Of a stretch of DNA of 64,000 nt, positions 53,233 to 56,510 are shown piece after piece; position 1 is the stretch's first letter, and every line of letters starts with the position of its first letter. The stretch covers positions 248,001 to 312,000 of the forward strand of contig JAEUTP010000010.1 in the NCBI GenBank assembly GCA_016787705.1, written 5' to 3'. The translations under genes were made by a program, and so were the position numbers. This DNA is from Bacteroidia bacterium. Lineage in GTDB: Bacteria; Bacteroidota; Bacteroidia; B-17B0; Aurantibacillaceae. Below the pieces are notes generated by a model, which made no database searches, was not told where the DNA came from, and saw only the letters and a program-made list of their open reading frames with translations.

Positions 53233-53817
53233 TTGGTACGACTTTTTATAATACTTGTTTTTACTTTTTTTGCTTTTGGATATCATGCTCAAAGTGATAC
53301 AATTGTATTGGGCAAAGATACCACCACTCAAACCAAAGTGCAGAAAAAAGCCATTTATTCAAGCGCGCGCAAAGCAAGTATAATGAGTGCCATTATACCG
53401 GGGCTTGGACAAGCCTATAACAAAAAGTACTGGAAAATTCCTATCATATACGCCGGGCTTGGTGGCTTTGGTTATATGTTCTTATCCAATAATACAAAGT
53501 ATAACGATTACCGAAAAGGTTTAATTGCTTCAGTAAACCATGGCGATTCTTCACAAATGGTATATGGTGATTATTACAGTCAAAGTCAATTACAATCACA
53601 AAAATTATACTACCGTAAATACAGAGATTTTGCAGTAATTGGCTTTAGCATTGTTTATATTATAAATATTATTGATGCGAATGTGGATGCACATTTACGA
53701 ACTTTTGATGTAAGCGATGATCTGAGCCTTCAGGTTGATCCATGGCAAAATGTGTATCGCACAGCTTCGGGATACAAAACAGCAACCGGAATATCTTTAA
53801 AATTAAATTTTAAATAA
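53233..53817 (+). CDS. DUF5683-domain secreted or membrane protein
   Basis: This 194-residue protein starts at a TTG immediately after the yihY stop; no ATG fits. It opens with a hydrophobic signal (LFIILVFTFFAFGYHAQ). SARKASIMSAIIPGLGQAYN and KYWKIPIIYAGLGGFGYMFL, followed by a later RDFAVIGFSIVYIINIIDANV, are DUF5683 hallmarks in Bacteroidota. Function is unknown; it lies with dapB in an operon. Confidence 0.88.
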   Translation: MVRLFIILVFTFFAFGYHAQSDTIVLGKDTTTQTKVQKKAIYSSARKASIMSAIIPGLGQAYNKKYWKIPIIYAGLGGFGYMFLSNNTKYNDYRKGLIASVNHGDSSQMVYGDYYSQSQLQSQKLYYRKYRDFAVIGFSIVYIINIIDANVDAHLRTFDVSDDLSLQVDPWQNVYRTASGYKTATGISLKLNFK

Positions 53818-53818
53818 A

Positions 53819-54526
53819 ATGAATATTGCATTATTTGGTTATGGTAAAATGGGTAAAGAAATTGAGGCCATTGCCATAAAAAGAAACCACAACATTATAC
53901 TAAAAATCAATAAGGCTAATGTGGAGAGCATTACCGTAGCAGATCTAAAAAAAGCAGATGTGATTATTGAGTTTAGCACACCACATTCTGTTTTAGAGAA
54001 TATTAAAAAATGTATTAACGCGCAGGTACCAGTGATTGTTGGCACTACAGGCTGGTACGATAATTTTCCGGACATAAAAAAATTATGTTCAGAAAAGAAC
54101 GGTGCTTTATTTCATGCTACAAATTTTAGCCTTGGTGTAAATTTATTTTTTAAAGTAAATACTTATTTAGCCGAATTAATGAATAAGTATAATAATTACG
54201 AGGTAAGCATGGAAGAGATACATCACATTCATAAATTAGATAAACCCAGTGGAACAGCCATTACCTTGGCAGAACAGATTATAGATAAAATAGATAAAAA
54301 GAAAAAATGGAGCATTGAGGAAAGTAATGCCGAAACATTATTTATTCACGATGTAAGAGACGGTGAAGTGCCCGGTACGCACATTATTAAATACCAATCG
54401 GAAGTGGATGATATTGAAATAATGCACAAAGCCCATAATCGTAAGGGATTTGCATTAGGTGCGGTTATTGCTGCTGAATTTTTAAATGGCAAAAAAGGAA
54501 TTTATACCATGAGTGATATTATCTGA
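53819..54526 (+). CDS. dapB: 4-hydroxy-tetrahydrodipicolinate reductase
   Basis: This 235-residue enzyme of lysine/DAP synthesis reduces HTPA. MNIALFGYGKMGKEIE binds NAD(P)H; IVGTTGWY, FSLGVNLFF, EIHHIHKLDKPSGTA and HKAHNRKGFALGA are DapB features. The N-terminal domain is short, as in other Bacteroidota. Its end overlaps the Rieske gene by 14 bp. Confidence 0.95.
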   Translation: MNIALFGYGKMGKEIEAIAIKRNHNIILKINKANVESITVADLKKADVIIEFSTPHSVLENIKKCINAQVPVIVGTTGWYDNFPDIKKLCSEKNGALFHATNFSLGVNLFFKVNTYLAELMNKYNNYEVSMEEIHHIHKLDKPSGTAITLAEQIIDKIDKKKKWSIEESNAETLFIHDVRDGEVPGTHIIKYQSEVDDIEIMHKAHNRKGFALGAVIAAEFLNGKKGIYTMSDII

Positions 54527-54911
54527 TGAATTTTTACTCTTTAATTTAAAATTTTTAATTTATCTGAGTTATCACTGGTTCAAAATATTCGAAAAAGAAG
54601 AAAGTACCGAAGATTATCTTCAACCCAATACCTTTATTAATTTTGAATTTAAAAACGAAAAAATTTGTGTAACAAGAACTGAAAAAGGACTGTTTGCCTT
54701 TGGAGATCGTTGTCCGCACAATGGCGCACGTTTAAGCCAGGGTTTTTGCACAAAGAAAAATGAAGTTGTTTGTCCGTTGCATCGTTATTCATTTGATCTT
54801 GAAACCGGTAAAGCTACATCAGGCGGTGCTTTTGCATTAAAATTATATCCAATAAAAACAACTGATGATGGCATTTACGTTGGCATTGCCGCTAAGTGGT
54901 GGGAGTCTTGA
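54513..54911 (+). CDS. Rieske [2Fe-2S] ferredoxin-like protein
   Basis: This 132-residue protein carries the cluster motifs GDRCPHNGA and VVCPLHRYSFD (CxH and CxxH). The first ~18 residues are hydrophobic. The GTG at 54513, overlapping the dapB stop, is the only start that includes a full N-terminus. Small Rieske proteins of this kind are usually soluble electron-transfer components, but its partner is unknown. Confidence 0.85.
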   Translation: MILSDEFLLFNLKFLIYLSYHWFKIFEKEESTEDYLQPNTFINFEFKNEKICVTRTEKGLFAFGDRCPHNGARLSQGFCTKKNEVVCPLHRYSFDLETGKATSGGAFALKLYPIKTTDDGIYVGIAAKWWES

Positions 54912-54956
54912 TGTTTCCGGTTTAGAACAAGAAACTAAAAACAAGAAACTTGAAAC

Positions 54957-56168
54957 TTAGTGTACAAGGTCCATCTTCGTAAAAACACGCACCGGATAAA
55001 GTGCTGCAAAAAAACCAATCAACATTATCAATCCAAAGATCCAGATAAAATCTTTTAGTTGTACATCTATTGGGTAATATGGAATGATAAACTCATCGCC
55101 AAACTTCACCAAATGAAATTGCACCTGTAGCCAGCAGACCAATAGACCAATTAATAAACCAATTATAGCACCTACGCCTGTAATTAAAAAACCTTCGCGC
55201 ATAAAAATATTGCGTATAAGATTTATACTGGCACCCATACTATACAAGGTTTTAATATCTTTTCTTTTCTCAATAATAAGCATAGTTAACGCCCCAATTA
55301 TATTAAAGGTGGCAATTATTAAAATAAAAGCAAGAATAATAAATGTTGCCAGTTTTTCGGTCTCTAATGTTTTAAAAAGCACATCGTTTAATTGATAACG
55401 GTTCTTTACTACAAAAGCAGCGCCAAGTTTTTCCTGCAAGGCCAGCTGTACTCTTTCGTATGAATCTTTATCACACAATATCTCTACTGCACTAACTTTA
55501 TCGGGCTCATCAAATACTTTTTTTGCCGTTTCGATGTTTACAAACGCGTACTGAAAATCAAATTCATCATTTAATGAGAAAATGCCGGTTGGTGTGCAAT
55601 ATACCTGGTTAAAATTATCTTCAGGGTTTAAGCTGGTACTTTTTCCTTTAACAGGGCTAAAAATACTAAGTTCATTTACAAATTCACGGATGTTTACCTG
55701 TAACTGATTGGCAATACCGCGGCCAAGTAAAATATTATTTTTTTCCGGATTATTCAACCCGTAAATGCCATCTTCAATGGCACTTTCAATAGCAGCTACT
55801 TTATTAAAATTATCATCTACGCCTTTAATTGTAACAAGCGTTTGTTTATCAATATTCTTTAGCAAAGCTTTATCGCTGAGTGTTTTCGAAATAAATTTTA
55901 CACCTTCAATACTTTTTATTTCTGACATCAACTTTTCATCAGCATTAAAATATTTTCCTTTTGCAGTGGTTATTTTAAGATCTGGCTCAAAAATATTATA
56001 CAAATTTGCAACAGTTCCTGTTAAACCGTTCATAGCAGATAAAATAATAATTAAAGCGGCTGTAGTAATTGCAATAGCAATAATGCTTATCCAGCTAATA
56101 ATGTTAATGGCATTATTAGATTTTTTTGATACTAAATAACGTTTGGCTATGTAAAATGAAAAATCCAG
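54957..56168 (-). CDS. LolC/E-like ABC permease with likely CTG start
   Basis: With ATG at 56033 as start, the first membrane helix would be missing. Upstream in the same frame lie 45 residues, FSFYIAKRYLVSKKSNNAIN then a hydrophobic helix (IISWISIIAIAITTAALIII), the exact start usual for LolC/E-type permeases. A TAA, the stop of rbfA, is two codons before. Between them no ATG, GTG or TTG exists, only CTG at 56168. This gives 403 residues. A periplasmic domain lies between helix 1 and three C-terminal helices (from about residue 270). It may function with the LolD-like ATPase. Confidence 0.87.
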   Translation of the reverse strand: MDFSFYIAKRYLVSKKSNNAINIISWISIIAIAITTAALIIILSAMNGLTGTVANLYNIFEPDLKITTAKGKYFNADEKLMSEIKSIEGVKFISKTLSDKALLKNIDKQTLVTIKGVDDNFNKVAAIESAIEDGIYGLNNPEKNNILLGRGIANQLQVNIREFVNELSIFSPVKGKSTSLNPEDNFNQVYCTPTGIFSLNDEFDFQYAFVNIETAKKVFDEPDKVSAVEILCDKDSYERVQLALQEKLGAAFVVKNRYQLNDVLFKTLETEKLATFIILAFILIIATFNIIGALTMLIIEKRKDIKTLYSMGASINLIRNIFMREGFLITGVGAIIGLLIGLLVCWLQVQFHLVKFGDEFIIPYYPIDVQLKDFIWIFGLIMLIGFFAALYPVRVFTKMDLVH

Positions 56169-56171
56169 GAA

Positions 56172-56510
56172 TTACTTTTTTAAAAGTTCTTCTATTTTCA
56201 TGGCATAATCTAAAGAATCATCAATGTAGAACATTAGTTCGGGCACAATTCTCAATTGTTTTCCCACAATTAATCCTAATTTTTTTCGGATAACACTGGT
56301 TTGATCCTGGATCAATTTAAACACAATTTTTTTCTCTTTGCTACCCATTATGCTTAAATAAACCTTTGCAGAACTAAGATCGGGACTTACACGTACTGTA
56401 GTTACGGTTATAAAACCACCTCCAAAAAGCGAGCGTGCTTCGCTTCTAAAGATCTCTGCTAATTCTTTTTGCAATAATTTATTTACTTTTTGTTGCCTCA
56501 GGCTTTCCAT
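56172..56510 (-). CDS. rbfA: Ribosome-binding factor A
   Basis: This 112-residue protein has the KH-like domain of RbfA: SLRQQKVNKLLQKELAEIF at the start, VTTVRVSPDLSSAKVYLSI in the middle and RIVPELMFYIDDSLDYAMK near the end. It acts in 30S maturation. The permease gene follows with only 3 nt between the stop and its CTG, so the two are probably co-transcribed. Confidence 0.95.
   Translation of the reverse strand: MESLRQQKVNKLLQKELAEIFRSEARSLFGGGFITVTTVRVSPDLSSAKVYLSIMGSKEKKIVFKLIQDQTSVIRKKLGLIVGKQLRIVPELMFYIDDSLDYAMKIEELLKK

Follow-up and report, generated by a model that had tools for sequence, protein, structure and literature searches.

A permease gene next to rbfA in Aurantibacillaceae appears to use a weak, long-kept CTG start codon

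The rbfA-permease junction

We analyzed a stretch of 64,000 nucleotides (the window), which lies on contig C16 of a 4.5 Mb genome in 28 contigs (G000). On the minus strand of the window, a gene for an ABC transporter permease lies directly downstream of rbfA. On the plus strand, a gene for a Rieske protein is convergent with the permease gene and is preceded by dapB. The features are:

54957..56168, minus strand: FtsX/MacB-type (LolC/E-like) ABC transporter permease, 403 amino acids from the CTG (Pfam, NCBIfam)
56166..56168, minus strand: CTG start codon of the permease gene (from the sequence, from NTG in 38/38 orthologues, and from the homology boundary at this codon)
56031..56033, minus strand: first in-frame ATG of the permease gene (the 45 codons upstream evolve as coding sequence)
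56172..56174, minus strand: TAA that ends rbfA, with 3 nt between it and the CTG
56172..56510, minus strand: rbfA, ribosome-binding factor A, the upstream gene (Pfam RBFA, 4.1e-29; TIGR00082, 70.6 bits over 51.15)
54564..54911, plus strand: Rieske [2Fe-2S] domain protein gene, convergent with the permease gene (Pfam Rieske, 1.1e-14)
54564..54566, plus strand: CTG start of the Rieske gene (from the start column across relatives)
53819..54526, plus strand: dapB, the gene preceding the Rieske gene, with a 37-nt gap (TIGR00036, 148.4 bits over a cut-off of 122)

The permease matches two Pfam families: FtsX (1.9e-16, 60.7 bits over a cut-off of 25.5) and MacB_PCD (1.1e-7, 32.8 bits over a cut-off of 27). 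A preliminary description of this DNA had proposed a LolC/E-like permease. The FtsX/MacB type holds, but the score against NCBIfam's lolCE model (TIGR02212) is 223.7 bits, which is under the curated cut-off of 362.45, so we call the protein LolC/E-like and not LolC/E.

The open frame of the permease (54957-56171) begins directly after the TAA of rbfA. On the minus strand, the junction reads ...CTT TTA AAA AAG TAA TTC CTG GAT TTT TCA TTT TAC ATA GCC AAA CGT..., so that the CTG is the second codon after the TAA. In the window genome, rbfA and the permease are in the same frame. From the CTG, the encoded N-terminus is (start)-DFSFYIAKR, and the first downstream ATG (56033) is reached after 45 codons, with the CTG included. 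Between that ATG and the rbfA stop, the permease frame contains no ATG, GTG, or TTG, which leaves the CTG as the sole candidate. The sequence thus confirms how the preliminary description had placed the CTG: two codons after the TAA, in the same frame, and as the only possible start before the ATG.

The permease frame is coding up to the CTG

When the stretch from the CTG to the ATG was compared to four relatives, the differences at the first, second, and third codon positions numbered 6, 0, and 48 (180 codon comparisons). This is plainly the pattern of coding sequence, and the N-terminus is conserved, as the preliminary description had proposed for these 45 codons. We rejected the downstream ATG as the start because the codons upstream of it are coding. 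The ATG is likely to be where automatic annotation (mis)places the start. Starting there would cost the permease its first transmembrane segment (as judged by eye from the hydrophobic sequence).

The start column across orthologues

We aligned the junctions of orthologues, each with the DNA upstream of it; these came from the genus, other families of the class, and named public assemblies. (In two genomes, G015 and G032, there was no permease orthologue among the matches listed.) The counts that follow cover 38 rows, which represent the genus and its near kin. They leave out one locus (L040, from G024) with an ambiguous start, which could be a TTG one codon upstream or a CTG two codons downstream.

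The preliminary description had asked whether orthologues have ATG or CTG. In the column that corresponds to the CTG, all 38 orthologues have NTG: CTG in 18, TTG in 14, GTG in 4, and ATG in 2. The second base is T in 38/38 and the third base is G in 38/38, and the first base varies (C in 18, T in 14, G in 4, and A in 2). The preceding codon takes 24 different forms across the 38 orthologues, which shows that the NTG column is not due to chance. The codons after the column vary mostly at silent sites.

In other families of the class, the column in the aligned junctions is usually NTG, mainly TTG. We also surveyed 217 genomes of the class with an HTG pattern at the junction (which by design does not include GTG). 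There was no match in 147 genomes; the other 70 had TTG (34), ATG (32), or CTG (4). The four genomes with CTG are the window genome, two others from a sister genus of the same family, and a single genome from a different family. For comparison, ATG makes up 275 of about 325 resolved starts in the window genome. So a weak start is a class-wide property of this permease gene, with CTG as its extreme form in Aurantibacillaceae. It appears that the start column stayed NUG across the class and that, within the genus, it moves among CUG, UUG, and GUG.

Could translation begin elsewhere? No canonical start comes before the ATG at 56033, and the identical frames of rbfA and the permease in the window genome might suggest readthrough or a frameshift from rbfA. 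But the 45 codons that lead up to the ATG are conserved and carry silent changes, and 6 of the 38 relatives have ATG or GTG in the very column of the CTG. Furthermore, the distance from the rbfA stop to the start varies across relatives (-4, 2, 3, 4, 10, 22, and more), so a common phase of the two frames is not maintained, which excludes readthrough or a fusion with rbfA. We consider a start elsewhere to be very improbable. One might also suspect that ATG, GTG, or TTG was misread as CTG in sequencing or assembly, as the named relatives are metagenome assemblies, but the probability of this seems negligible. CTG is present in 18 of the 38 rows, from separate assemblies, and this excludes an error; CTG is also found in the two sister-genus genomes and in the genome from another family. 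Error and fusion with rbfA were the two outcomes that the preliminary description had named as fatal to its proposal. Overall, the comparison of orthologues makes us nearly certain that CUG is the authentic start of the permease gene, and it indicates that this CTG is a real and long-kept weak start.

A second CTG start in the convergent Rieske gene

The preliminary description mentioned two cases of CTG starts in 64 kb, but it gave no coordinates for the other one. We take it to be the CTG at the beginning of the Rieske gene (54564-54566), and both cases appear to be real. For 24 of 30 Rieske loci, we could count the start column: CTG in 4, TTG in 8, GTG in 2, ATG in 8, and ATC in 2. (L160, L161, L165, L166, L169, and L170 were left out because they are shifted, ambiguous, or truncated.) In the window genome, a GTG lies in frame 17 codons before the CTG. 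However, in three relatives with CTG in this column, a stop precedes it by no more than three codons, which shows that initiation at the upstream GTG is not general. In the window genome, the CTG is 37 nt past the stop of dapB. We conclude that the CTG start of the Rieske gene is real, judging from the start column, and, with this gap, not tightly coupled. CTG starts are thus not unique to the permease. In the two loci with ATC in the start column (L150 from G029 and L152 from G015), there is no NTG after the preceding stop.

The two CTG-started genes are convergent neighbors that meet at 54911-54957, and both are located within 2 kb, whereas the sample from contig C1 (below) yielded no such gene. 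Elsewhere in the window, a plus-strand gene at 53233-53817 has a TTG start with a gap of 0 to the preceding stop, and the closest relative (G025) has CTG there.

CTG starts are rare in the genome

The preliminary description suggested that this organism tolerates CUG initiation, and it proposed a wider search for CTG starts. We examined two contigs. For the window's contig (C16), we compared 177 orthologue groups with up to four relatives, and the start was resolved for 132 of them (45 were not resolved). These starts are ATG (108), TTG (13), GTG (9), and CTG (2); both CTG starts are in the window and belong to the permease and Rieske genes. For contig C1, we compared 270 orthologue groups with two relatives, which gave 197 resolved columns (and 73 that were not): ATG in 167, TTG in 14, GTG in 12, and, before inspection, CTG in 4. 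We inspected these four by eye and dropped all of them (adjacent ATG; overlap with the upstream gene and a downstream ATG; signal-peptide region; tRNA antisense). Of the roughly 193 resolved starts that remain on contig C1, none is convincingly CTG. (A fifth column has TTG in the window genome, CTG in two relatives, and ATG four codons on.) Because 45 and 73 groups stayed without a resolved start, there could be hidden cases.

Combining the two contigs, ATG accounts for 275 of about 325 resolved starts, and CTG accounts for 2 of about 325, both from a window that was selected for such cases. So CUG use seems to be rare and gene-specific in this genome. The search did recover the two cases in the window, but a general tolerance of CUG initiation is not supported as stated.

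The initiation machinery looks ordinary as well. The gene for the initiator tRNA (a single match in a pattern search) has a CAU anticodon and three G-C pairs. As these are normal, we rejected a changed initiator tRNA in this lineage. For initiation factor IF3, we saw no sign of a change: the IF3 encoded in the window genome matches its family, seven sequences from the genus look ordinary, and one of these aligns to solved IF3 structures without obvious loss. A global relaxation of initiation is not indicated.

Other unusual starts

Outside of the window, a minus-strand gene for an ABC ATPase (G000:C1:466209-467204) has a conserved N-terminus without ATG, GTG, or TTG. At the homology boundary, the apparent start is ATT in the window genome and ATC in G006 and G018 (these three genomes only), and there is no NTG between the preceding stop and this boundary.

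The gene for IF3, infC, starts with AUU, AUC, or AUA and is autoregulated by IF3. Bacteroidia are generally without Shine-Dalgarno (SD) sites. In infC from members of the genus and from other families of Bacteroidia (L242, L250, L252, and L258-L264), we noticed that the apparent ATT, ATC, or ATA start (placed by eye) follows a few bases after an SD-like GGAGG, which is often AAAACGGAGGT. L261 has GCGGAGGCT in place of the usual SD-like motif. This is similar in spirit to rpsU of Flavobacteriales, which has an SD site. Like the permease gene, infC has a conserved non-canonical start in a bacterial chromosome, and it has one in members of this genus. In contrast to infC, with its GGAGG upstream, the permease gene shows no sign of such a site or of feedback.

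Repeated switching of the start codon and spacing to rbfA

To follow the start codon, we used a maximum-likelihood tree built from 50 permease proteins. (A partial protein, L050, and three divergent outgroups, L047, L051, and L052, were left out.) The start codon switched repeatedly. Gains or losses of CTG number at least 8, and at least 5 of these changes are forced by well-supported branches. All four start codons together require 17 changes.

In the 37 genus-level rows that have both genes, the start codon is related to the gap between the rbfA stop and the permease start. With a gap of -4 to 10 nt (30 rows), the start is CTG in 18, TTG in 8, GTG in 4, and ATG in none. With a gap of over 10 nt (7 rows), the start is TTG in 5, ATG in 2, and CTG in none. 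If kinship is ignored, then Fisher's exact test gives p = 0.008 for CTG versus gap and p = 0.03 for ATG versus gap. The two rows with ATG are sisters that form one clade, and the gap is long in their nearest neighbor on the tree as well. Because the spacing changed only 4 times on the tree (4 independent pairs), a link between CTG and coupling cannot reach significance once kinship is counted, and we view this link as suggestive only.

We also fitted the frequencies of the first base on the tree for the closely spaced rows, which gave 0 for A, 0.49 for C, 0.19 for G, and 0.32 for T. These frequencies reject both the genome's base composition (p = 0.003) and the genome's usage of start codons (p = 8e-11). 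This suggests that the permease's start column shuns AUG while it is directly after rbfA.

Why would the permease keep a weak start?

We think it probable that the CUG is a genuine weak start that is kept for low output of the permease, and that it is probably fed by ribosomes that finish rbfA. Under this model, ribosomes that end rbfA at its stop would reinitiate at an NUG that is 2-10 nt further on. The usual initiator tRNA (fMet, anticodon CAU) would decode the CUG, so that translation would presumably initiate with fMet. The position, rather than full codon-anticodon pairing, would pick the start; in other words, nearness would replace part of the codon check. The poor codon would be kept because it holds down the output of this inner-membrane permease. 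For two individual parts of this model, we are less confident: we lean toward coupled reinitiation as the supply for the permease's start, and we lean about as far toward selection for low expression as the reason that the weak start is kept.

The permease's start, with a gap of 3 nt, has the spacing of a coupled pair. As to coupling, which the preliminary description had offered as a possible explanation, CTG does go with a short gap to rbfA, but coupling by itself does not account for CTG. It is not sufficient, because, in the window genome, ATG starts 26 of the 33 genes that closely follow another gene, and it is not necessary, because the Rieske gene has a CTG with a gap of 37 nt.

Alternatively, CUG might be the start while coupling and selection for weakness are irrelevant: initiation might be loose in this lineage, so that near-cognate starts drift in and out. 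The Rieske genes could be viewed this way, with CTG in 4 rows and ATC in 2 rows out of 24 and a gap to the upstream gene that is not short, and so could the ABC ATPase gene with its apparent ATT or ATC. But loose initiation does not explain why CTG is so rare in the sampled genes and ATG so dominant, or why the permease's start column shuns ATG beyond what base composition would predict. The normal initiator tRNA and the ordinary-looking IF3 proteins also argue against it. We consider loose initiation to be unlikely, and we favor a weak start that is kept for low output.

A broader speculation, which we consider doubtful but somewhat less so than loose initiation, is that across this clade ribosomes that have just finished one gene are able to start again at nearly any NUG that is at most about 10 nt away. 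Coupling would then lift the need for AUG, and the first base (CUG, UUG, or GUG) would act as a dial for expression, with AUG kept out. SD-independent initiation would also accept AUC or AUU in a few ordinary genes. If so, then every automatic annotation would consistently truncate or lose a small set of this clade's genes.

Discussion

To our knowledge, natural CUG starts in bacterial chromosomes are extremely rare and short-lived. In the open literature, we found nothing about the rbfA-permease pair or about CUG starts in Bacteroidota. CUG starts are already known as a kind, and the alignments suggest that the permease's is unusually well conserved. A survey of prokaryotic start codons that, like our analysis, followed NUG switching on trees reconstructed about 69,000 ancestral starts and reports 4 switches to CUG among them (PMC5622118, in the text available), as compared to CUG in 18 of 38 rows for this one gene. 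In complexes from E. coli, CUG is described as less stable than the other NUG starts (PMC11497404, available text).

The closest precedent may be the FIB rep gene of IncFIB replicons, from F-like plasmids. According to the accessible part of that report, it has a natural CTG start that is kept for low but sufficient expression, and, as is likely for the permease, the start is usually misannotated to a downstream canonical codon (PMC11983097). FIB rep differs in being a plasmid gene with a good ribosome-binding site, and its start was proven by the protein's N-terminus and by mutation (PMC11983097). The permease gene is chromosomal, belongs to a class without Shine-Dalgarno sites, and lies right after another gene's stop, and the evidence for its start is comparative. 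For the proposed mechanism, there is a parallel in caliciviruses and influenza B, where termination-reinitiation uses non-canonical starts that are close to the stop just used, with lower stringency there (PMC5972666, as far as the accessible text goes). In those cases the ribosomes are eukaryotic and the RNA is viral and carries a tethering element (PMC5972666); they bear on the bacterial case by analogy.

Gene finders that are limited to ATG, GTG, and TTG will lose the permease's first transmembrane helix, and they will miss or truncate the Rieske protein in genomes from this uncultured genus of Bacteroidota. Through much of the genus, the permease start has remained CUG, UUG, or GUG, and CUG was repeatedly regained or lost. 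Because NUG is kept and CUG is repeatedly switched, this gene offers a ready test of whether reinitiation lowers the stringency of start selection in bacteria that lack Shine-Dalgarno sites.
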